Shown here: positions 8,030-58,264 of the stretch, in pieces | How positions within the stretch are numbered: position 1 is the stretch's first letter | Layout of the letters: each line of letters opens with the position of its first letter | Assembly: GCF_009905545.1 (NCBI RefSeq) | Contig: NZ_JAAALB010000004.1 | Location: 186,001-250,000, forward strand | DNA from: Cellulophaga sp. BC115SP | GTDB taxonomy: Bacteria > Bacteroidota > Bacteroidia > Cytophagales > Spirosomataceae | Direction: 5' to 3' | DNA length: 64,000 nt | Made by a program: the position numbers and the translations under genes | The notes under the pieces: generated by a model | Told to the model about the DNA's origin: nothing | The model's input: the letters and a program-made list of their open reading frames with translations, nothing else | Databases searched by the model: none

Positions 8030-8114
8030 ACAGGCGTTAGGAGTAGAGGGTAATCATTACAACATAGAACTTAACAAATAACGTTTAACGCATAACGAAT
8101 AACGTATAACGAAA

Positions 8115-45840: not shown

Positions 45841-46704
45841 ATGCTTAAAAAACTTACCATGGTTATGGCTGCTGCTAGCTTAGTAGTTGCATGTAACAAA
45901 AATCGTGTAGAGGTAATCGAAAATGTGAAGATTCAAATTCACAACCATGACGACAAGGCGAAGAAATTAAAAGATGGCGATATCATCACTTTTACTGCCA
46001 AAATCTATAATAGCGCAGATTCATTGTTACAAGAGTCAACTGAAGCAAACCCAGCACGTGCTATGGTTCAGCCAGCAGGTGCATCAGGCTTTAAAGGTAG
46101 CTTCGAAGATGGTTTGAGATTACTTGCTCAGGGTGACAGTGCAACAATTTATGTACCAGTAGATTCATTGTCAAAAGGTGCACAACAATTGCCTCCATTT
46201 ATCAAAAAAGGAACAGATTTGAAATATTCTGTTAAAATCTTGAAAGTACAAACTCGTGCTGATTTTGATAAAGAAATGGCTGCTAATGCTCAAAAAGAAA
46301 AGCAAGCTGCTGAAGCACGCAAGACAGAACTTCCAAAATTGATTCAAGATTATATCGCAAAATCTGGAAAAACATTCAAAACTACTGCTTCAGGCTTATA
46401 CTACTCAATCACAACTGAAGGTACTGGCGCTAGTCCTAAAAAAGGAGACGTTTGTAAGTGTATGTATGTTGGTAAATTCTTGGATGGTAAAGTATTTGAC
46501 CAAAGCAAACAACCAATTGATATGCCAATCGGACAAATGATTCCAGGATTTAACGAAGCATTGACATTGATGAAAAAAGGTGGAAAAGCAACATTCGTGA
46601 TCCCTCCAGCAATCGGTTATGGCGAGCAAGGACAAGGCCCAATCCCAGGCAACTCTGCTTTGGTATTCGAGGTTGAAGTAATTGATTTCACAGCGTCAAA
46701 ATAA
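45841..46704 (+). CDS. FKBP-type peptidyl-prolyl isomerase lipoprotein 1
   Basis: A 287-residue lipoprotein: signal peptide MLKKLTMVMAAASLVVAC with lipid-attachment Cys18. An N-terminal FKBP-like half (about 30-140; KLKDGDIITFTAKIYNSADS) is degenerate. A helical linker rich in Lys, Glu and Ala lies at 145-185. The C-terminal FKBP domain (about 195-285) has MYVGKFLDGKVFDQSKQP, IGQMIPGFNEALTLMKKGGKATFVIPPAIGYGEQG and NSALVFEVEVIDF. It is probably an outer membrane lipoprotein chaperone. GldI of gliding bacteria has this architecture, but the assignment is not proven. Confidence 0.9.
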   Translation: MLKKLTMVMAAASLVVACNKNRVEVIENVKIQIHNHDDKAKKLKDGDIITFTAKIYNSADSLLQESTEANPARAMVQPAGASGFKGSFEDGLRLLAQGDSATIYVPVDSLSKGAQQLPPFIKKGTDLKYSVKILKVQTRADFDKEMAANAQKEKQAAEARKTELPKLIQDYIAKSGKTFKTTASGLYYSITTEGTGASPKKGDVCKCMYVGKFLDGKVFDQSKQPIDMPIGQMIPGFNEALTLMKKGGKATFVIPPAIGYGEQGQGPIPGNSALVFEVEVIDFTASK

Positions 46705-46730
46705 TATCAAGGTTGTAAGTAATTACGCGA

Positions 46731-46785
46731 TAAAAGTGTAGGCGGTATTCTCGGATACATCTTACACTTTTGTCTGTTTTTGGAA
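46731..46785 (+). terminator. probable terminator after FKBP gene 1
   Basis: aaaagtgta (46732-46740) pairs with tacactttt (46763-46771), then a T-rich tract. The loop is long, so it is only moderately convincing. Confidence 0.5.
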
Positions 46786-46986
46786 ATCCCTTCATTCTAA
46801 AGTGCAAAACTGCTAATTTTAACAGTTTTTAACAGCCAAGTAGCACTATTCCACAAATGCTTGTCGTTATTTTACACTATGAAAGACTGTCTATTCCAGT
46901 AAAGTGAATACTTTATGTTTAGGAGTTTTCAGTTAAAGATATTCCAAGCTAATTTTTAATCTAACAATCTGTAATTATCATCAAAG

Positions 46987-47859
46987 ATGAAAAACATCAA
47001 AAGTTTATATGTGTTGGGGCTGTTTGCGATTGTAGTGCTATTGAGTTCATGCTTATCGACAATCGTCTTAGAAAATGACGAAATCGTAAAACAGAACGAA
47101 ACCAAAATTCAGACATATTTAAGTTCACAGTCACTATCATTTACCAAAGCAACAAACGGTATTTACTATACAGCTGTGGGTGATACTAGCGGACGTGTTA
47201 TGACGGCTGGTGATACTGTAAGAGTACAATACACTATTTCAAGATTGGATGGAGTGAAAATCGATAGCTCAGTTACAGGAAAACCATTCCAGTTTATTTA
47301 TGGTAATAGTACTAGTATTTTTGTGAAAACGCTTCCTTTGTTGCACGAGAGCCAACAAGGGTCATTTATTATTCCATCTACTCAAGCATTGGGGTCACAA
47401 ACGTTTCCAAATCTACCTGCAAACTCACCGATTCGCTTAGATGTAAAATGGTTTAAAACCTACAGTGAAGCGGCTTATATTGATAACTATATCTTAGCGA
47501 ATAAGATCACTGTGACTGCAAAATACAGTAATGGCTTACGTTATATCCGTACTCAAGATGGAACAGGAGACTATATGGCAAGTGGTAAAATTGCCAAAGT
47601 TAAATATACAGGAAAGCTATTGAATGGATTTATCTTTGATTCAAACGTTGCAAAAACCGATACCTTCAAAATTACCATCGGTGGGTCATCAGCTATTACT
47701 GGTTTCCAAAGAGGGGTAGAGTTGATGAAAGTAGGAGAAAAAGCAACCCTAATTTTCCCATCATCTATTGGTTATGGCACAACAGGTTCGTTACCAAAGA
47801 TTCCAGGGGAATCACCATTGATTTTTGATGTACAAGTAATTGCTGTAAGCGATAATTAA
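46987..47859 (+). CDS. FKBP-type peptidyl-prolyl isomerase lipoprotein 2
   Basis: A 290-residue lipoprotein, signal peptide MKNIKSLYVLGLFAIVVLLSSC with Cys22. The first FKBP-like half (about 40-160) starts QTYLSSQSLSFTKATNGIYY and holds MTAGDTVRVQYTISRLDGVKID, lacking several active-site residues. The second half (about 180-288) has VKYTGKLLNGFIFDSN, ITGFQRGVELMKVGEKATLIFPSSIGYGTTG and LIFDVQVIAV. The two halves suggest domain duplication. It is a paralogue of the proteins encoded on either side and likely sits in the outer membrane. Confidence 0.88.
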   Translation: MKNIKSLYVLGLFAIVVLLSSCLSTIVLENDEIVKQNETKIQTYLSSQSLSFTKATNGIYYTAVGDTSGRVMTAGDTVRVQYTISRLDGVKIDSSVTGKPFQFIYGNSTSIFVKTLPLLHESQQGSFIIPSTQALGSQTFPNLPANSPIRLDVKWFKTYSEAAYIDNYILANKITVTAKYSNGLRYIRTQDGTGDYMASGKIAKVKYTGKLLNGFIFDSNVAKTDTFKITIGGSSAITGFQRGVELMKVGEKATLIFPSSIGYGTTGSLPKIPGESPLIFDVQVIAVSDN

Positions 47860-48069
47860 TAGTAAATATTATCTAAAGAGTTAGAAATTAGAGTAAGTAA
47901 TCCTTTCAAAGAGATAAAGTTGTAAGGAATGGTCATTTGAATACAACCATTTTGCCAGCTTTGGAGTCTTTGGGATAAGATGCTCTAACATCTAACTCTT
48001 TATTTTTGAAAGCAGATGTATGCGAAAGCGTAACATTCGCAATTTTAAACCCCAATTATTGTATTTATT

Positions 48070-48960
48070 ATGAAAAAACTCTTCTGGTTATTAACGATTG
48101 GTTATGCATTTTTGATGACTTCTTGTATGAGTAATGGCGATCCTGACCCAGCTGCAACAGAGAAACTCAAACAAAATGAAGCAGCAGTAAAGAAATATAT
48201 CACTGACAATAATCTTGCTGTACAACAACATAGTTCAGGCTTTTATTTTCAAATCAATAACTCAAACCCATCGGGTCGTGTTCCTGTAGTAGGTGATTTG
48301 TCATCGATTAACTTCGTGATTAAAAATCTTGCAGGTACTATTGTTGATAGTTCAAGAGTTAATCAGAAAATTGCTTATGATTATATTTTTGGAGCCTATA
48401 ACAGTGTATTCAATTATCCATTGAGTATAATGCGTGTAGGAGATAAAGGTAAATTTATTTTTCCTCAACTTCAAAGCAATGGCGATCCTGTGATTATTGA
48501 GATTGAGTTGTTGAATACGCTTACCGAAAATGAGAATATTGATAAGTATATCGCAACGAAATATCCTCAATTGTCATTTACTAAAACCTCTACTGATTTA
48601 CGATTTGCAATAACAAGTGCTAATCCTAGTGGGGAGTCTTTAACATCAGGCAAAAAAGTTTCATTAAAGTATACTGGAAAGTTACTTTTTGAAATGAGAA
48701 AAGTGGATGCCAATAACAAACTCTATTATGATGCTCAATTTGACGCAAATACGATGGATTTTACCGTTGGCGCAAATCTTACAATTAGAGGATTTGAAGA
48801 AGGCGTTGCAAGAATGAAAGTTGGAGAAAAAGCAGTGTTTATCTTTCCTTCAAATATTGGGTATTCAAGTGGTGGTAGTGTCAACCAAACTACTGGTGTA
48901 TATGTGATACCTCCTTATGCTTCATTACAATTTGAAGTAGAGGTAGTGTCAGTAAAATAA
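48070..48960 (+). CDS. FKBP-type peptidyl-prolyl isomerase lipoprotein 3
   Basis: A 296-residue lipoprotein, signal peptide MKKLFWLLTIGYAFLMTSC with Cys19 followed by MSNGDPDP. It resembles FKBP lipoprotein 2 in layout: an N-terminal half with VKKYITDNNLAVQQHSSGFYFQI and VPVVGDLSSINFVIKNLAG, and a C-terminal half with VSLKYTGKLLFEMRK, LTIRGFEEGVARMKVGEKAVFIFPSNIGYSSGG and LQFEVEVVSV. An insertion in the first strand pair (KVDANNKLYYDAQFD) separates it from the others. Many FKBP catalytic aromatic residues are replaced, so isomerase activity may be weak. Confidence 0.86.
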   Translation: MKKLFWLLTIGYAFLMTSCMSNGDPDPAATEKLKQNEAAVKKYITDNNLAVQQHSSGFYFQINNSNPSGRVPVVGDLSSINFVIKNLAGTIVDSSRVNQKIAYDYIFGAYNSVFNYPLSIMRVGDKGKFIFPQLQSNGDPVIIEIELLNTLTENENIDKYIATKYPQLSFTKTSTDLRFAITSANPSGESLTSGKKVSLKYTGKLLFEMRKVDANNKLYYDAQFDANTMDFTVGANLTIRGFEEGVARMKVGEKAVFIFPSNIGYSSGGSVNQTTGVYVIPPYASLQFEVEVVSVK

Positions 48961-50044: not shown

Positions 50045-50074
50045 ATGTTGGAATCAAAATCACTTGTCTTATAC

Positions 50075-52633
50075 ATGTGCACTAAAAACCTCTTTTTATT
50101 CACAAAAATTTTAACCATTATTATCTTAACAACCCTAACTACAAAAGCACAATTCGTTATAAAAGGTAGAGTTACAGATGCAAAAAATGGTGATCCGCTT
50201 CCTTTTGCTACAGTCGGTATCAAAGGTAAAAATATAGGTGCTCAAACCAACTTTGAGGGTATTTTTACTATTCGTGCAAAAGAACTCGGCGATTCTCTCT
50301 ATGTAAGTACAGTAGGCTATAAAACTCGTACCAAAGCCATTGATAAAAAGTCAGCAAATCAAACTATTGATTTTCAGTTAGCGGGCGAAGCCAAGTCCCT
50401 AGATGAAGTAATTGTTTATTCTGGAGAAAATCCTGCCTTTAAAATTCTTCGTAAACTTCGTGAAAATAGTGATAAAAATGACCGTAAGCGCTTAAGTGCC
50501 TACGAGTATGATTCCTATTCAAAAATGGAACTTGATGTAGATAATATTTCAGAAAAGTTCAAGAAGAGAAAGGTTATGAAGCAAATCCAAGGTGCCATTG
50601 ACAAATTTGAAAAAATGGCAGGCGAAGATGGAAAGGCGGTTATTCCAACGTTTATTTCAGAAACAGTTTCTAAATATTACTACCGTGAAAGCCCTTCTCG
50701 CAAAAAAGAAATGGTGCTTAAAAACAACGTAAAAGGAGTTGGTGTCAAAGAAGGAGGATTTGTGTCGCAATTAGTTGGAGGAAACCTTTTTGCCAACTAT
50801 AACTTTTATAATAACTACGTCGCATTTTTAGGAAAAGATATTATTTCGCCAATTGGTGAAAACTGGAAAGGTACCTATAAATGGTATTTGTCAGATACCA
50901 CCGATATAGATGGACATATCTGCTATGGTATGGAGTTCGATCCAAAAAACGATAAAGATTTGGTGTTTATCGGAAAAGCTTATATCGATACCACTACTTA
51001 TGCCTTGGTTCAGATAGACGCTACTGTAGGCAAAGAAGCCAATATCAACTTTATTGATAAGATTAAAATTTCTCAAGAGTTAACACAAACTTCTGAAGGA
51101 GCGTGGCTTCCTGCCAAAACACGTTTTTTGATTGATATTGCTGAAATTTCAAAGAATTCGGCTGGTATGCTTTTGAAAATGTATATCTCCAACAAAGACT
51201 TTGTGATTAATCAACCAAAGCCTCTAGCGTTTTACGATATTCCTGTCGAGGTAGCCGAGGATTCAAAAGAAACTGACCCTAAATTTTGGGAACAAGCCCG
51301 TCATGAGCCTTTTAGCGCTCAAGACGTATTAGCGTCTAGGTTGATAGATACCGTACGTAATGTGCCTATCGTACGCACATATGTAGAGATTGCAGAGATT
51401 GTTGCAAGTGGTTACAAGCGCTTCGATGGTATCGAAATTGGCCCATATTTGTATTCTATTGCTTTCAACCGAATTGAAGGAATGCGCTTAAGAATGGGTT
51501 TTAGAACGAATGCAGCATTTAGTAAGCACTGGGTCTTTAGAGGTTTTGCAGGAATTGGAACACGAGATTTGAAGATGAAATATGGTGCGGAAGCCAACTA
51601 TATTTTGTCTAGAAGACACTGGACCGTTGCAGGATTTAAACATACCTATGACTTAGAACGCATAGGCTTAACACCTGAATTGATTTCAGACAATAAAATC
51701 TTCTATGCTTTTACGCGCTGGGGATTATATTCTGGAGCGTTTTATCGTCGAGAAAATGAAGCATTCATTAAAACAGAGCCAACAAAAGGAATTACTTTAA
51801 CGGCGTCTTTGATTCAACGAAATTTTGATCCTTTGTTTGCATTCAAGTATCGTACTAATCCCGAAATGAATCAACTGTCTCCATCAAGAGATTACTATGA
51901 TGATACTTTTTTGACATTAGAAGCTCGTTTTGCTAAAAATGAAACTTATATCATGGATGGCAACGAACGAATCACACTCGATACTAAACGCGTTCCTGTG
52001 GTTACGCTTACGTATCAACGAGGCTTGAAAGGATTTTTGAATGGCGATTTTGACTATCACAAATTTACAGCAAAAGTGTATCAAACATTTAGATTAGGTA
52101 CACTTGGTCGTTCGTCTTATTTGTTACAAGCTGGCTATACACCATCTAGTTTGCCTGCTCCATTATTGTATCCACACTTAGGAAACCAAACGCTATTCTT
52201 TAATAGAGCAGCATTTAATACAATGCACTATTTTGAATTTGTGAGTGATAAGTTTGTTTCTGTGCAATACAACCACAATTTCGAAGGATTATTATTCAAT
52301 AGAATTCCTGCAATTCGTCAATTGAAATGGCGTCTTTTGGCAACAGCCAATATATTGTACGGTAGCCAAAAACAAGGAAATCAGCAATTGATGGATGATG
52401 CAATGCCAATATTTAATCCTCGACATCCTTCTAATATGCTTGAATCAAGGTTTAATTTTTCAAGCTTAGATCCAAATATTCCGTTTGTGGAGGTTGGTTA
52501 TGGGATTGATAATATCTTTAAAATATTTAGAATTCAGGCATTTCATCGCCTCACTTACTTAGACCACTTGTCTCCATCGGGTAAATTACCAGATAAATTT
52601 ACCATAAAAGGATCAGTACATTTTTCATTCTAA
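50075..52633 (+). CDS. DUF5686 / carboxypeptidase-regulatory-like outer membrane protein
   Basis: An 852-residue exported protein. Start ATG 50075 gives a compact signal peptide (MCTKNLFLFTKILTIIILTT, ending near TKAQ); the frame extends to an ATG at 50045. The N-terminal CarboxypepD_reg-like domain reads FVIKGRVTDAKNGDPLPFATVGIKG near 27-51. The DUF5686 region follows, with LDEVIVYSGENPAFKILRKLRENSDKND near 108-135, and the rest is a predicted beta-barrel that ends in TIKGSVHFSF with a terminal Phe. The function is unknown; related proteins resemble TonB-dependent receptors without a plug. It is single, with a terminator behind. Confidence 0.9.
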   Translation: MCTKNLFLFTKILTIIILTTLTTKAQFVIKGRVTDAKNGDPLPFATVGIKGKNIGAQTNFEGIFTIRAKELGDSLYVSTVGYKTRTKAIDKKSANQTIDFQLAGEAKSLDEVIVYSGENPAFKILRKLRENSDKNDRKRLSAYEYDSYSKMELDVDNISEKFKKRKVMKQIQGAIDKFEKMAGEDGKAVIPTFISETVSKYYYRESPSRKKEMVLKNNVKGVGVKEGGFVSQLVGGNLFANYNFYNNYVAFLGKDIISPIGENWKGTYKWYLSDTTDIDGHICYGMEFDPKNDKDLVFIGKAYIDTTTYALVQIDATVGKEANINFIDKIKISQELTQTSEGAWLPAKTRFLIDIAEISKNSAGMLLKMYISNKDFVINQPKPLAFYDIPVEVAEDSKETDPKFWEQARHEPFSAQDVLASRLIDTVRNVPIVRTYVEIAEIVASGYKRFDGIEIGPYLYSIAFNRIEGMRLRMGFRTNAAFSKHWVFRGFAGIGTRDLKMKYGAEANYILSRRHWTVAGFKHTYDLERIGLTPELISDNKIFYAFTRWGLYSGAFYRRENEAFIKTEPTKGITLTASLIQRNFDPLFAFKYRTNPEMNQLSPSRDYYDDTFLTLEARFAKNETYIMDGNERITLDTKRVPVVTLTYQRGLKGFLNGDFDYHKFTAKVYQTFRLGTLGRSSYLLQAGYTPSSLPAPLLYPHLGNQTLFFNRAAFNTMHYFEFVSDKFVSVQYNHNFEGLLFNRIPAIRQLKWRLLATANILYGSQKQGNQQLMDDAMPIFNPRHPSNMLESRFNFSSLDPNIPFVEVGYGIDNIFKIFRIQAFHRLTYLDHLSPSGKLPDKFTIKGSVHFSF

Positions 52634-52640
52634 GTTATCA

Positions 52641-52678
52641 GCTCCTATTGAACGTAATGTTTGATAGGAGTTTTTTAT
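52641..52678 (+). terminator. intrinsic terminator of the DUF5686 gene
   Basis: ctcctat and ataggag form a stem, followed by a T run, 8 bp after the stop. The remaining 52680-53115 has no gene I can support; ttcgca/tgcgaa at about 53040-53063 could be a weak end-hairpin of the peptide array. Confidence 0.7.
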
Positions 52679-53115
52679 TAAGTCCCTTGTTCTGTTATAC
52701 CTTGTCAGACATCGAAAATGTCTTTGAGGAAGATAGTTTTTTTGCGATAAGGTATTTACTTTGTACAAAAAGTGTGTTTCAGCGCAGTTAATCATAGATA
52801 AGAAATGAACCTTTAGGCATATACGTATTGAGCAATGCGTATTACTGAGTATTTTCCATTATGTAAAATTACTGAGATTCTCCTCTGGTTCATTTCTATT
52901 GCATATCGCCATCTATGTGCCTCCTAAAGCCGAAGACATTAACTAAAAAAATTTGATGATTGATTGTCAAAAGCACCTTTTGACCGTATGTAAACTTGCG
53001 ATTTGAAATTTAGACTATTGTAGATTTATAATTTTAAGTTTCGCATTTGAGCGGTTTTGCGAATGTCTACAAATTAAGGATTCTTTTTGTTTTGATAATT
53101 AGAGTAAACAACTGC

Positions 53116-53301
53116 TTAGAAATTAGAGATAATCGAAGCGGTAGCATTATCATTGAAATTCGAAATGATTGATGCAGTGTACTGAGCGCCGAAGTTTGAG
53201 ATAATCGAAGCCGTTTTATGGTTAAGTGTATCTTGGTTGTTGAATTTAGCAACCGTAGATTTAGCAACAGAAAGCTTGTTGTTAGTTGTGATAGTTTTCA
53301 T
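53116..53301 (-). CDS. RiPP-precursor-like peptide, array unit 8
   Basis: A 61-residue peptide, the last in transcription order. The N-terminal part (1-29) is polar and contains LSVAKSTVAKFNN (residues 10-22), resembling the leader motif of Bacteroidota class I lanthipeptide-type precursors (L-x-L-x-K-x-T-I-A-x-L). The C-terminal part (30-61) has TASIISNF at 30-37, 42-49 and 54-61, separated by GAQY and NDNA. This copy has Thr at residue 25, where the others have Ser. There is no Cys and no GG cleavage site. It is not a recognised family; function is unknown. Confidence 0.7.
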   Translation of the reverse strand: MKTITTNNKLSVAKSTVAKFNNQDTLNHKTASIISNFGAQYTASIISNFNDNATASIISNF

Positions 53302-53359
53302 GGCAATGAGAGTTTATAAATTTTTGAATGTTGTGTTGTTACAGATAAAAGGGCTATTC

Positions 53360-53545
53360 TTAGAAATTCGAGATAATCGAAGCAGTAGCATTATCATTGA
53401 AATTCGAAATGATTGATGCGGTGTACTGAGCGCCGAAGTTTGAGATAATCGAAGCCGTTTTATGGTTAAGGCTATCTTGGTTATTGAATTTAGCAACCGT
53501 AGATTTAGCAACAGAAAGCTTGTTGTTAGTTGTGATAGTTTTCAT
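53360..53545 (-). CDS. RiPP-precursor-like peptide, array unit 7
   Basis: A 61-residue peptide with Thr3, Ala13 and Ser25. The three TASIISNF repeats (30-37, 42-49, 54-61) are identical to those in all other units. Codons in the repeats differ from neighbours without changing the protein, for example ACC-GCA in place of ACT-GCT in the second repeat, pointing to selection on the peptide. The stop TAA directly follows the last Phe, so the motif forms the C-terminus. Confidence 0.72.
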   Translation of the reverse strand: MKTITTNNKLSVAKSTVAKFNNQDSLNHKTASIISNFGAQYTASIISNFNDNATASIISNF

Positions 53546-53604
53546 GGCAATGAGAGTTTATAAATTTTTGAATGTTGTGTTGTTACAGATAAAAAGGGCT
53601 ATTC

Positions 53605-53790
53605 TTAGAAATTCGAGATAATCGAAGCGGTAGCATTATCATTGAAATTCGAAATGATTGAAGCAGTGTACTGAGCGCCGAAATTTGAGATAATCGAAGC
53701 CGTTTTATGGTTAAGGGAATCTTGGTTATTGAATTTAGCAACCGTAGACTTAGAAACAGAAAGCTTGTTGTTAGTTGTGATAGATTTCAT
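53605..53790 (-). CDS. RiPP-precursor-like peptide, array unit 6
   Basis: A 61-residue peptide with Ser3, Ser13 and Ser25, identical in protein sequence to array unit 5. The leader-like half carries LSVSKSTVAKFNN. As in all units, the predicted core is composed only of T, A, S, I, N, F, G, Q, Y and D and lacks Cys, Lys, Arg and Glu, which is unusual for a soluble domain and fits a modified or aggregating peptide. Confidence 0.72.
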   Translation of the reverse strand: MKSITTNNKLSVSKSTVAKFNNQDSLNHKTASIISNFGAQYTASIISNFNDNATASIISNF

Positions 53791-53848
53791 GGCAATAAGA
53801 GTTTTAAATTTTTGAATGTTGTGTTGTTACAGATAAAAAGGGCTATTC

Positions 53849-54034
53849 TTAGAAATTCGAGATAATCGAAGCGGTCGCATTATCATTGAAATTCGAAATG
53901 ATTGAAGCAGTGTACTGAGCGCCGAAATTTGATATAATCGAAGCCGTTTTATGGTTAAGGGAATCTTGGTTATTGAATTTAGCAACAGTAGACTTAGAAA
54001 CAGAAAGCTTGTTGTTAGTTGTGATAGATTTCAT
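53849..54034 (-). CDS. RiPP-precursor-like peptide, array unit 5
   Basis: A 61-residue peptide with Ser3, Ser13 and Ser25. The first repeat carries ATA for Ile and AAT for Asn (about 53927-53942), where most units have ATC and AAC; the amino acids stay the same. This is the clearest single example of synonymous drift in the array. Confidence 0.72.
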   Translation of the reverse strand: MKSITTNNKLSVSKSTVAKFNNQDSLNHKTASIISNFGAQYTASIISNFNDNATASIISNF

Positions 54035-54093
54035 GGCAATAAGAGTTTTAAATTTTTGAATGTTGTGTTAGTATCTGATAAAAAGGGCTATTC

Positions 54094-54279
54094 TTAGAAA
54101 TTCGAGATAATCGAAGCGGTAGCATTATCATTAAAATTCGAAATGATTGAAGCAGTGTACTGAGCGCCGAAGTTTGAGATAATCGAAGCCGTTTTATGGT
54201 TAAGGCTATCTTGGTTATTGAATTTAGCAACCGTAGATTTAGCAACAGAAAGTTTATTGTTAGTTGTGATAGATTTCAT
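54094..54279 (-). CDS. RiPP-precursor-like peptide, array unit 4
   Basis: A 61-residue peptide with Ser3, Ala13 and Ser25. Leader LSVAKSTVAKFNN and the three TASIISNF repeats are intact. The spacer before it (54280-54337) has the variant gtgttagtatctgataaaa in place of gtgttgttacagataaaa, which also appears in the spacer 54035-54093, so this pair of spacers shares a recent duplication history. Confidence 0.72.
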   Translation of the reverse strand: MKSITTNNKLSVAKSTVAKFNNQDSLNHKTASIISNFGAQYTASIISNFNDNATASIISNF

Positions 54280-54337
54280 GGCAATAAGAGTTTTAAATTT
54301 TTGAATGTTGTGTTAGTATCTGATAAAAGGGCTATTC

Positions 54338-54523
54338 TTAGAAATTCGAGATAATCGAAGCGGTAGCATTATCATTGAAATTCGAAATGATCGAAGCAGT
54401 GTACTGAGCGCCGAAGTTTGAGATAATCGAAGCCGTTTTGTGGTTAAGGCTATCTTGGTTGTTGAATTTAGCAACCGTAGATTTAGAAACAGAAAGCTTG
54501 TTGTTAGTTGTGATAGTTTTCAT
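54338..54523 (-). CDS. RiPP-precursor-like peptide, array unit 3
   Basis: A 61-residue peptide with Thr3, Ser13 and Ser25, the same protein as unit 2. Its DNA shares with units 1 and 2 a gtggttaag variant (His codon CAC) near the leader-core junction and gatcgaag in the second repeat, showing that units 1-3 form the youngest subgroup. Confidence 0.72.
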   Translation of the reverse strand: MKTITTNNKLSVSKSTVAKFNNQDSLNHKTASIISNFGAQYTASIISNFNDNATASIISNF

Positions 54524-54581
54524 GGCAATGCGAGTTTATAAATTTTTGAATGTTGTGTTGTTACAGATAAAAGGGCTATTC

Positions 54582-54767
54582 TTAGAAATTCGAGATAATT
54601 GAAGCGGTCGCATTATCATTGAAATTCGAAATGATCGAAGCAGTGTACTGAGCGCCGAAGTTTGAGATAATCGAAGCCGTTTTGTGGTTAAGGCTATCTT
54701 GGTTGTTGAATTTAGCAACCGTAGATTTAGAAACAGAAAGCTTGTTGTTAGTTGTGATAGTTTTCAT
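54582..54767 (-). CDS. RiPP-precursor-like peptide, array unit 2
   Basis: A 61-residue peptide with Thr3, Ser13 and Ser25. The last repeat has codons GCG-ACC-GCT-TCA-ATT for A-T-A-S-I, shared with unit 1, while other units use GCT-ACC-GCT-TCG-ATT; the protein is unchanged. Confidence 0.72.
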   Translation of the reverse strand: MKTITTNNKLSVSKSTVAKFNNQDSLNHKTASIISNFGAQYTASIISNFNDNATASIISNF

Positions 54768-54825
54768 GGCAATGCGAGTTTATAAATTTTTGAATGTTGT
54801 GTTGTTACAGATAAAAGGGCTATTC

Positions 54826-55011
54826 TTAGAAATTCGAGATAATTGAAGCGGTCGCATTATCATTGAAATTCGAAATGATCGAAGCAGTGTACTGAGCGCC
54901 GAAGTTTGAGATGATCGAAGCCGTTTTGTGGTTAAGGCTATCTTGGTTATTGAATTTAGCAACCGTAGATTTAGCAACAGAAAGCTTGTTATTTGTTGTA
55001 ATATTTTTCAT
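54826..55011 (-). CDS. RiPP-precursor-like peptide, array unit 1 (promoter-proximal)
   Basis: A 61-residue peptide, the first to be transcribed, with Asn3, Ala13 and Ser25. Its first codons (atgaaaaatattacaacaaat) diverge most from the other units, as expected for the array edge. The three TASIISNF repeats are intact. Upstream (55012-55186) is the divergent spacer shared with the sensor kinase gene. No full Bacteroidota promoter could be placed there on the minus strand; AACTTTG near 55076-55082 is a partial -7 match. Confidence 0.7.
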   Translation of the reverse strand: MKNITTNNKLSVAKSTVAKFNNQDSLNHKTASIISNFGAQYTASIISNFNDNATASIISNF

Positions 55012-55186
55012 GGCAAAAATCTTTTATTTATTAAGTTATGTGTCTAGTAATTAGCTTCTTGCGAAGTGATGATACAAAGTTGTTCAAAAGATTTTGGCCT
55101 ATTTATTTTATCGGATTAATCCGTTTATTATCAATCCGAATAGGAAGATTGTCTATTTTAATTTTTTAATTATCCTAAAAAATTCT

Positions 55187-56329
55187 ATGTTGAATCGAAC
55201 AGCAGATACACAGAAAAGGACTTCATGGGCTTCAAGGGAAGTAAGTACGCATGTGATGATTTGGGTCTTGTACACCATTTATTTTAGCTTACTACTTCAT
55301 TTCTTTTATGGAGAGCCCATTACACCGAAGTTTATTCTACAGGCGGTCGTGTATAGGATTGGCGATGCCATGCTGTTTTATGGGCTTGCGCTACTAGTTT
55401 TGCCCCGTTTTTTTTCAAAATCGAAAATTTTTCAGCTAATTCTGTCATTTTTAATATTGCTTGGTTTGTATTTAGGCTGGAGAGCATGGATAGAGTATAT
55501 TTTGATGCCATGGTTGTTTAGCACGATAGGGACTAAAATAGCACAAATGATATCTTTGACTATCTTTAATGCCAATACTTATGTGATGTTTAGTGTGGGT
55601 TATTTCTTTGCTCTGAAGTCGATTAAACAGCAAAAAGAAATTGCTCATCAAGAAATTGCAATTGCGGAAAAAGATGCAGAAATTGCAAGACAAGACGCAG
55701 AACTAGCTATTTTAGCAAAAGAGAAAACTCTCGCCGAAATGGCATTTTTACGTGCGCAAATCAATCCTCACTTTTTGTACAATACCCTAAATATGCTGTA
55801 CAGCAAAGTACGTGGTGCATCCAAAGAAGCAGGAAATATTATCCTGACATTTGCCGAAATGATGCGCTATGCTACCAGTACTCGTATGCAGCAAGATACC
55901 GTCGACTTAGAAGGGGAATTGGATTTTGTCAAGCAATATCTCGAACTACAAAGGCAACGTTTTAATAATAATATCTTTATTGATTATGAAGAACAAGGTG
56001 ACTTCAGCTATTTTAGAATCATGCCAATGGTATTGATTACCATTGTTGAAAATAGCTTTAAACACGGCGAGCTTCATGACCCAGAGAGTCCTCTACAAAT
56101 ACGTGCGATTCTTGAAGATGATATTTTGACGTTCTCTACCTGGAACTTGAAACGAAAGGACGATAATCCTATCACTGATAAAGGTCAAACAGGTATTGGT
56201 ATCGACAATATCAAAAAACGCCTTAAGGTTGTTCATGGCGATGCTCAAGAATTGAGCATAATTGATGATAAGGATGATTATGCTGTATTTTTTACCTTAA
56301 ACTTTAACTATAACCCGAACGGAATATGA
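55187..56329 (+). CDS. LytS-type sensor histidine kinase
   Basis: A 380-residue membrane kinase. ATG 55187 (MLNRTADTQKRTSWASREVS) is preferred over an upstream TTG. Four membrane segments lie at about residues 20-150. A coiled coil (KQQKEIAHQEIAIAEKDAEIARQDAELA) near 148-175 leads to the His_kinase domain: LAEMAFLRAQINPHFLYNTLNMLYSKVRG with the phospho-acceptor His near 193. MPMVLITIVENSFKHGELHD is the N box and GQTGIGIDNIKKRLKVVHGD the G box. Its stop overlaps the regulator start (ATGA), so the two form a unit. It is divergent from the peptide array. Confidence 0.93.
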   Translation: MLNRTADTQKRTSWASREVSTHVMIWVLYTIYFSLLLHFFYGEPITPKFILQAVVYRIGDAMLFYGLALLVLPRFFSKSKIFQLILSFLILLGLYLGWRAWIEYILMPWLFSTIGTKIAQMISLTIFNANTYVMFSVGYFFALKSIKQQKEIAHQEIAIAEKDAEIARQDAELAILAKEKTLAEMAFLRAQINPHFLYNTLNMLYSKVRGASKEAGNIILTFAEMMRYATSTRMQQDTVDLEGELDFVKQYLELQRQRFNNNIFIDYEEQGDFSYFRIMPMVLITIVENSFKHGELHDPESPLQIRAILEDDILTFSTWNLKRKDDNPITDKGQTGIGIDNIKKRLKVVHGDAQELSIIDDKDDYAVFFTLNFNYNPNGI

Positions 56330-57108
56330 TTAACTGTGTCGCAGTAGATGATGAGCAATCTGCCTTGGATATTGTGGTAGATTACATAAACGATACCCCA
56401 TTTCTAAACTTAGTTGCGGCCACCACAAATCCCATGGAAGCGGTGGGTGTTTTACAGACTAAAGAAGTTGATTTGGTATTTGCAGATATTCAAATGCCTC
56501 GTATGAATGGCATGAACTTGGTGAGTCTTTTTGATGGTCGTATGAAGTTTATCATGACTACAGGTTATCAAGAATACGCACTCAAAAGTTTTGAATATGG
56601 AGTACTCGACTATTTGGTGAAGCCGTTTTCATACCAAAGATTTTTGAAGGCTGTTAACAAAATGCCTTTTCACATGACCTTGGTTGAAGAGCCCAAACCT
56701 GCTGCTGCTCCAGAGCCACAGCCTGCCAAAAAAGAGGAATTCATTTTTGTGAAGGTAGATGTAAAAGGAAAATTCCATAAAGTGCTATTCAAAGATGTAG
56801 TGTACATGGAAGCACAAAAAAATTATGCTTCTATTTACATGAAAGACGAACGTATTTCTACGAATTTGACATTGTCAGACTTAGAAAAACGTTTGCCTTC
56901 TGACAGATTTATGCGTGTACATCGCTCGTATATTATTTCGATGGAAAAAATTACAGGCATAGAGGGTGACGAAGTGTTACTCGATAAAGTAGTGCGTATT
57001 CCAATTGGTGATACTTATTCAGAAGAATTTACAAAAGTTATTGAAGGAAGTATTTTCTTTAAAGATAAAGATAGTGCTACCTTGATTGATAAACGATTGA
57101 CAAATTAA
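56326..57108 (+). CDS. LytTR family response regulator
   Basis: A 260-residue regulator. The receiver domain (about 1-115) has NCVAVDDEQSALDIV with acidic residues 7-9, LVFADIQMPRMNGMNLV with the phospho-acceptor Asp near 55, and DYLVKPFSYQRFLKAV with conserved Lys. A Pro/Ala-rich linker (KPAAAPEPQPAKKEE) joins the LytTR DNA-binding domain (about 142-245): FVKVDVKGKFHKVLFKDVVYMEAQKNYASIYMKDER and RFMRVHRSYIISMEKITGIEGDEVLL. It partners the overlapping kinase. LytTR regulators bind direct repeats upstream of target promoters; the divergent peptide array is a plausible target. Confidence 0.94.
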   Translation: MINCVAVDDEQSALDIVVDYINDTPFLNLVAATTNPMEAVGVLQTKEVDLVFADIQMPRMNGMNLVSLFDGRMKFIMTTGYQEYALKSFEYGVLDYLVKPFSYQRFLKAVNKMPFHMTLVEEPKPAAAPEPQPAKKEEFIFVKVDVKGKFHKVLFKDVVYMEAQKNYASIYMKDERISTNLTLSDLEKRLPSDRFMRVHRSYIISMEKITGIEGDEVLLDKVVRIPIGDTYSEEFTKVIEGSIFFKDKDSATLIDKRLTN

Positions 57109-57622: not shown

Positions 57623-58264
57623 ATGTTAACCCTACTCGTTGTTGTTTGTACAGTACTTGCCTATTTGTTAGGTTCCATCCCAACGGCTATTTGGTATGGC
57701 GAAGCTTATTTTGGAATCGACGTGCGCAAGCATGGAAGCGGTAATGCTGGCGCTACTAATACTTTTAGGGTGTTAGGCAAAAGAGCAGGAACTGTCGTGT
57801 TGTTGATTGATGCTATTAAGGGGTGGATTTCTACTTCGTTGGCATTGATGCTTTATTATGGTCACATGGTTGAATGGAACGAATGCCAAACTTTAAAGTT
57901 AATTTTTGGTTTTGCTGCTGTAGTTGGACATATTTTTCCTGTATTTTCAAATTTTAAGGGAGGCAAAGGTGTAGCAACGCTCTTGGGTATGGTAATGTCG
58001 GTGCATCCTGAGGCTGCTTTAGTATGTATGGTAATTTTCTTTGTAGTATTTATGTCGTTTCATTATGTATCATTGGGGGCTATTATTGCATCATTAGCGT
58101 TTCCTGTGCTTTTATTGTTACGTACATTTGGTAAAGAAAATGAATCGGTAATTGTCTTTGGATTTATGCTTTTTGGGATGATTGTCATTACACATCGTAA
58201 AAATATTGTACGCTTAATGAGAGGACAAGAAAGTCGTATTTATCTAAGAAAAAAGAAAGAGTAA
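57623..58264 (+). CDS. plsY: glycerol-3-phosphate acyltransferase PlsY
   Basis: A 213-residue membrane enzyme that acylates glycerol-3-phosphate from acyl-phosphate, the first step of phospholipid synthesis. Motifs: YLLGSIPTAIWYGEAYFGIDVRKHGSGNAGATNTFRVLGK at residues about 12-52, the substrate loop VVGHIFPVFSNFKGGKGVATLLG near 98-120, and IVITHRKNIVRLMRGQESRI at the C-terminal end. Five to six membrane segments. Single gene. Confidence 0.97.
   Translation: MLTLLVVVCTVLAYLLGSIPTAIWYGEAYFGIDVRKHGSGNAGATNTFRVLGKRAGTVVLLIDAIKGWISTSLALMLYYGHMVEWNECQTLKLIFGFAAVVGHIFPVFSNFKGGKGVATLLGMVMSVHPEAALVCMVIFFVVFMSFHYVSLGAIIASLAFPVLLLLRTFGKENESVIVFGFMLFGMIVITHRKNIVRLMRGQESRIYLRKKKE

Follow-up and report, generated by a model that had tools for sequence, protein, structure and literature searches.

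A tandem array of cysteine-free peptide genes with a lanthipeptide-type leader adjoins a LytS/LytTR pair and co-occurs with one LanB clade

The 64,000-nucleotide stretch of Cellulophaga sp. BC115SP analysed here (contig NZ_JAAALB010000004.1, positions 186,001 to 250,000; hereafter the window) carries a tandem array of eight genes for a 61-residue peptide. We consider it rather probable that these genes encode precursors of a cysteine-free ribosomally synthesized and post-translationally modified peptide (RiPP) that is dehydrated by a LanB enzyme, stays uncyclised and is controlled by the two-component pair encoded next to the array. We infer the action of LanB on the array peptide, the dehydration itself and the binding of the regulator at a conserved promoter motif; that the product is also the ligand of the kinase is more speculative and lies outside the probability just given. 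The peptide is a candidate for a bacterial signal or weapon of a new kind. An earlier note on this DNA had pointed to the leader, to selection and to the lack of a thioether, all of which stand; it overlooked three things described below: the adjacent LytS/LytTR cassette, the empty sites, and the joint occurrence of peptide and LanB.

The array occupies positions 53116-55011 on the minus strand as eight head-to-tail open reading frames (ORFs), each of 61 codons with an ATG start, in repeat units of 244-245 bp that leave 58-59 bp between genes. Tandem Repeats Finder, run on the window, joins the copies in one array (53115-55016; period 244, 7.8 copies, 96% matches, score 3339), and this result together with the ORF coordinates confirms the eight-gene array that the earlier note had claimed without stating its strand. 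The units are the following.

54826-55011, minus strand: precursor gene unit 1, 61 aa, the first downstream of the promoter region at 55012-55186
54582-54767, minus strand: precursor gene unit 2
54338-54523, minus strand: precursor gene unit 3
54094-54279, minus strand: precursor gene unit 4
53849-54034, minus strand: precursor gene unit 5
53605-53790, minus strand: precursor gene unit 6
53360-53545, minus strand: precursor gene unit 7
53116-53301, minus strand: precursor gene unit 8

The eight peptides vary at residues 3, 13 and 25 only, and their core (residues 30-61) consists of three TASIISNF units at a 12-residue period, separated by the spacers GAQY and NDNA, and is identical in all eight. 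Both points had been claimed beforehand and hold across the set, as do the codon differences cited then (ATC in unit 1; ATA and AAT in unit 5). All 11 variable nucleotide positions in the core are synonymous, with a mean nonsynonymous divergence (dN) of 0 and a mean synonymous divergence (dS) of 0.20 over the 28 pairs of copies. The array peptide is under purifying selection. When four congeners were searched, arrays were found at the same place in G066 (three genes), G037 (seven) and G001 (seven), and none in G053, giving copy numbers of 8, 3, 7 and 7 with our own genome included. In G001 a single peptide is encoded by seven distinct coding sequences. The units of G001 form one clade and those of G037 another: array units evolve in concert. 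Selection on the peptide, as proposed earlier, is part of the history; the copies also evolve together, and between genera the core has been replaced completely while the leader was kept. The frameshifts and core drift that the earlier note had named as refuting its view were not seen within the arrays, all 25 genes read in the four genomes having intact frames; frameshifted remnants were not separately sought.

The leader is of the class I lanthipeptide type. Residues 1-23 of all three peptides tried, out of the eight, match the NCBIfam model NF038153 (lant_leader_L1a, a class I lanthipeptide leader) at E 0.0015-0.006 and 16.7-18.6 bits, and a scan of the whole genome with this model gave matches over the eight array genes alone, at 17.3-20.0 bits. 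The sequence reads LSVxKSTVAKF, near the LxLxKx5L motif described for leaders of Bacteroidetes class I lanthipeptide precursors in the part of the survey by Walker et al. drawn on here (Walker et al. 2020, PMC7268733). The leader type named in the earlier note is thus borne out by the motif and by model matches that lie below the curated cut-off. None of the eight array peptides contains cysteine. A thioether is impossible from a Cys-free core alone, as had been argued, and array-type cores would yield no lanthionine or methyllanthionine unless an external thiol were supplied. A Pfam search of three array peptides gave nothing credible (one match, to a phage terminase family, at E 0.12), and tblastn of the array peptide against 72,556 plasmid records gave no match.

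The earlier note had suggested looking for a LanB elsewhere in the genome, and one is present: the LanB N-domain has a single match (E 1e-144), on another contig (G000:C110:100675-103761). The protein is full-length at 1029 aa, carries both domains (PF04738 and PF14028) and matches NisB (4wd9, E 7e-49) and chain 9g04 (E 2e-52) in the PDB. LanBs at 46-100% identity to it occur in 14 of 222 genomes of the family, and these 14 form one clade with support of 100/100 in a tree of 33 LanBs (33 of 34 loci, the partial row of G117 being left out; further listed LanB matches were not included). Motifs of the active-site region of both domains, which from work on NisB we take to hold the catalytic residues, are kept in 14 of 14 orthologs. 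The best match to LanC (PF05147) in our genome reaches 18.8 bits against a cut-off of 23.2, and no precursor, LanC or transporter was seen beside LanB among the flanking ORFs, judged by eye. Across the clade, no LanC match lies within 1.5 kb of any of the 14 LanBs, and eight of the 14 genomes lack a LanC over the cut-off altogether. Where LanC does occur, it is surrounded by ordinary Cys-containing clusters in G001 and G028 and has a second LanB beside it in G065. The LanB of G102 (43% identity) was rejected as a clade member, since it adjoins a LanC and falls outside the 14-member clade.

The peptide genes and the two-component pair together form a cassette beside a DUF5686 gene, with these further features in the window.

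50045-52633, plus strand: DUF5686 / CarboxypepD_reg-like gene, which borders the cassette on the left and occurs in cassette-free genomes too
55112-55143, minus strand: conserved promoter motif upstream of unit 1, an imperfect direct repeat with a period of about 21 bp, candidate LytTR site
55187-56329, plus strand: LytS-type membrane histidine kinase, 380 aa (PF06580, E 2e-24), divergent from the array, with a start assigned by congener comparison and orthologs at the same locus
56326-57108, plus strand: LytTR response regulator, 260 aa (PF00072 and PF04397)
57623-58264, plus strand: plsY-like gene (named by eye), right border in this genus by empty-site comparison

The cassette peptide co-occurs with the LanB clade. 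The peptide is present at the locus in 13 of the 14 LanB-clade genomes, the remaining one (G112) being unreadable there at a contig end. Eleven of the 13 have DUF5686, peptide, kinase and regulator on a single contig, with G104 showing the DUF5686 side only and G052 split; peptide, kinase and regulator are together on one contig in 11 of the 14 clade genomes, the other three being cut by contig ends. LanB-clade-negative genomes were defined as those with no match at E 1e-190, the excluded G102 apart, and 16 regions were fetched from them; G009 (short contig), G046, G006, G063 and G102 lacked the DUF5686-plsY order and were not counted. The 11 with the same gene order all have an empty site, in which plsY follows DUF5686 at a distance of 9-276 nt; the gap contains neither kinase nor regulator, and a pattern search found no leader peptide there. 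Fisher's test of peptide against LanB clade (13/13 versus 0/12) gives 2e-7, a value that ignores relatedness. G053 keeps the kinase and regulator and lacks both peptide and LanB. Because the tree of the neighbouring peptidase groups G053 and G010, which has an empty site, with cassette carriers (support of 100/100, little resolution within the group), we read these two genomes as joint absences of peptide and LanB within that group.

Two further DUF5686 genes came to light. One in G066 (G066:C44:3206-5779, L159), 87% identical, lies beside a different regulator/kinase pair and was rejected as a cassette site, with no leader peptide in its gap. The other is a homolog near Rep-, ParA- and recombinase-like genes (by eye) on a plasmid-like contig (L140, G112:C178).

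Outside the genus, the locus was traced through the neighbouring kinase and the leader; ORF listings beyond the window covered ORFs of at least 130 aa or short ORFs fitting the leader pattern, and some gaps were listed in full. At the same place in other genera, next to DUF5686 and/or divergent from the kinase, stand peptides that keep the leader, lack Cys and have different, mostly repeated cores.

G104: two genes, core MTGSISSF twice
G087: core MTGGISSHP twice
G096: two genes, core YTSIINSHID twice
G065: core FGTGAMTM three times
G077: core QTWITNV twice
G052: core NVVTLWETR in two copies, the gene being divided between two contig ends
G005: two copies of MPTVISQ in one frame, at its readable end; another gene (L063:9268-9405) has no exact repeat of at least 3 residues
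G028: TITL repeat only
G036: no exact internal repeat of at least 3 residues

TGSIISNF is also among the repeated cores at the locus in relatives. Counting one cassette peptide per genome, all 12 have an LxLxKx5L-like or LxVxKx5F-like leader (hydrophobic substitutions allowed; one has Thr at the first position) and none has a Cys. Nine of the 12 contain an exact internal repeat of 7-12 residues after residue 20, a figure reached by 0 of 2000 shuffles. Ser and Thr make up 71 of 212 residues in the repeat units versus 0 of 39 in the spacers, a descriptive count with unit borders set by us.

A conserved site lies between the kinase and the first peptide gene. Over this region in 10 genomes (near-copies G066 and G037 and the contig-end locus of G104 left out; one site per sequence forced), a Gibbs sampler found a 32-bp motif at 25.9-26.6 bits in eight runs, against a mean of 16.2 (sd 0.4, maximum 17.3) in 40 dinucleotide-shuffled sets searched with equal effort. 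A leave-one-out matrix applied to the window scores 28.0 at 55112-55143, with the next values at 9.0 (an overlapping offset) and 8.7; the full matrix scores chance places in other loci at up to 14.5, and its weakest true member (G028) at 18.3. An offset of about 21 bp is the best or tied-best of three tried in nine of the 10 sites, and G001 and G005 contain exact 10-bp repeats with a spacing of 21 bp. LytTR sites are described as 9-bp direct repeats, mostly with 12 bp between them, in the portion of PMC6193735 available here. The motif is absent from the G053 locus. Sigma-70-type promoters (13 versus 10.8, sd 3.7, in shuffles) and terminators (1 versus 1.5, sd 1.0) show no excess in 52600-55300.

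These data suggest the following scheme. The LytS/LytTR pair would switch on the array through the site at 55112-55143; residues 1-22 would serve as the leader, through which the LanB from the other contig would bind the precursor and dehydrate Ser and Thr in each TASIISNF unit. Because the peptide has no Cys and the genome no recognisable LanC, the dehydroamino acids would stay uncyclised and no thioether would form. The leader, and perhaps the spacers too, would then be cut off and the product would leave the cell, with the repeats between Ser/Thr-free spacers as the probable functional units, either in one chain or cut apart. Finally, the kinase might sense the product, perhaps as the cell's own pheromone: because one kinase, one regulator and one peptide sit together, autoinduction is the simplest reading. 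More broadly, and tentatively, Bacteroidota may possess a two-component pheromone system that signals with a short dehydroamino-acid peptide. A LanB would make this peptide without LanC, each precursor would hold several copies of it and each array several precursors (like yeast alpha-factor), and the unit would be rewritten between species together with the sensor half of the kinase; we regard this extension as possible and distinctly less secure than the LanB-dependent precursor itself.

Several observations weigh against the LanB-dependent, autoinducing scheme. The LanB gene lies away from the array, and the promoter motif is found in the 500 bp upstream of 0 of 14 LanBs, so we rejected co-regulation of LanB through this site. 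The two halves of the direct repeat within the motif agree imperfectly, at 3-6 of 9 positions (in the window, at 3 of 9). The leader match stays below the curated cut-off of NF038153 (22 bits) in all eight genes, the best reaching 20.0, this was the only NCBIfam leader model run on the genome, and the leader has no GG site. Nor is the leader exclusive to the array locus: leader-like peptides also stand (by eye) beside other LytS-type kinase genes in G005, G028, G065 and G077, four of five with one Cys, which widens the pattern. LanC is present somewhere in the genome in six of 14 clade members (G001, G005, G028, G052, G065 and G077). In G005, where LanC and a one-Cys leader peptide lie at another locus and the sole LanB match is the clade member, that LanB may therefore serve an ordinary lanthipeptide too. 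Repeats are lacking from the cores of G036 and of one G005 gene. The co-occurrence of peptide and LanB lies within one bacterial family and is not phylogenetically independent. By eye, no protease or exporter was recognised among ORFs near the array, and no genome-wide search for one was made. As for the signal, sensor halves of the 13 kinase orthologs share a mean identity of 36% versus 60% for the kinase halves; such fast divergence fits a changing ligand, yet is common in kinases generally. Eight gene copies, a high number for a signal, suggest that much product is needed, which would suit an antimicrobial or a surface peptide equally well.

The strongest alternative keeps every step but the last. 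The array would encode a LanB-modified antimicrobial, a bacteriocin, with the LytS/LytTR pair sensing another cue such as envelope stress or competitors and switching on a many-copy weapon whose core is diversified by competition. Up to eight gene copies and a hypervariable core behind a conserved leader speak for it, and LytTR-controlled bacteriocin genes are known, on the evidence of the accessible part of PMC6193735. Because no ORF of at least 130 aa is listed in the gap between DUF5686 and kinase in the 11 genomes with both on one contig (the G005 gap being partly N), no large immunity or export gene stands there, which tells against a bacteriocin, with smaller genes possible. We give this explanation a substantial minority share, and we consider a weapon controlled by the environment almost as probable as a product that acts as a signal.

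The remaining explanations fare worse. An unmodified structural or self-associating repeat peptide, for a biofilm or fibre, with the LanB serving another substrate, would suit short hydrophobic repeats at fixed spacing and an unlinked LanB; it would not account for cores such as NVVTLWETR, MTGGISSHP and MPTVISQ, which share no obvious fibre pattern and retain a LanB-type leader, or for the joint absence of peptide and LanB in G053 and G010, and we think it unlikely. Slightly less likely still is a precursor for another RiPP enzyme, an ATP-grasp or radical-SAM protein encoded elsewhere, with the link to LanB a phylogenetic coincidence: the leader family is that of LanB substrates, the peptide co-occurs with one LanB clade, and no such enzyme was recognised by eye among window ORFs of at least 150 aa, no genome-wide search having been made. 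A selfish or decaying tandem duplication without function, which differing copy numbers among congeners and concerted evolution of the units might suggest, is very improbable, being contradicted already by the synonymous-only variation of the core (dN 0, dS 0.20) and further by the seven coding sequences for one peptide in G001 and the uniformly intact frames.

The proposed LanB-modified precursor resembles known systems in part. Nisin, itself made by a LanB, turns on its own genes via a kinase and a regulator, and so parallels the origin and self-induction proposed for the array peptide; it differs in its thioethers, its LanC, its linked LanB and another family of kinase and regulator. Sil reportedly combines two-component peptide signalling with a LytTR regulator. 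In Agr, as far as the consulted part of the source describes it (PMC4227749), a peptide gene likewise adjoins a membrane kinase and a LytTR regulator, and the direct-repeat-like site of the window, with its period of about 21 bp, recalls the sites of the LytTR-controlled bacteriocins in PMC6193735. Unlike all three, the cassette has a LytS-type kinase (PF06580), a Bacteroidota host, a putatively LanB-modified signal and no dedicated exporter or protease that we could see. The Bacteroidetes class I lanthipeptides, as covered in the part of PMC7268733 used here, share the leader motif and a full-length two-domain LanB in the genome; here, by contrast, the core has no Cys, no LanC exceeds the cut-off, the LanB is unlinked and the genes form an array with core repeats. 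Fully dehydrated peptides from Chryseobacterium and Runella have been reported from co-expression in E. coli with the LanB and the host's GluRS/tRNA-Glu (PMC9993889). An ordinary class I cluster in the congener G001 (L058) is similar in leader type, LanB and nearby regulator and kinase genes (by eye), and differs in a GG-ended leader, a four-Cys core, an adjacent LanC, a C39-type transporter (by eye) and a LanB outside the cassette clade.

Some observations stand apart from this comparison. The five small peptides with LxLxK-type leaders beside other LytS-like kinase genes (by eye) lie at L066:6352-6474 (G065), L128:5796-5912 (G005) and L127:14587-14922 (G028), and at L126:5877-5999 and L125:5646-5762 (both G077), the L125 peptide also adjoining a radical-SAM-like gene; a wider pairing of peptides and kinases may exist. 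In G028, a 6.4-kb contig on which neither LanB nor LanC was recognised carries seven tandem genes (L130:4321-5882) for lanthipeptide-like precursors that contain Cys and have a GG leader (MKKNA..KLKLDKKT.SKLN..GG). Elsewhere in the window, three consecutive genes like those for FKBP-type prolyl isomerase lipoproteins are followed by a HAM1/RdgB-like gene (45841-48960; names by eye), and a short AT-rich tandem repeat of ATAACG-type units spans 8072-8113.

We found no description of such a system in the literature searched, most subscription journals being beyond reach. The survey in PMC7268733 dropped ORFs whose estimated core lacks Cys, and this peptide family would therefore have escaped it; a second (PMC11251773) began from ORFs near LanC. 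Because these surveys required a core Cys or a nearby LanC, LanB substrates with bare dehydroamino acids would have been missed by design. One LanB clade co-occurs with a family of Cys-free precursors that have hypervariable, mostly repeated cores and their own sensor-regulator pair. If the proposed chemistry is true, this association would supply a search rule for LanB products made without LanC and, in Bacteroidota, a candidate for peptide signalling that genetics can test.

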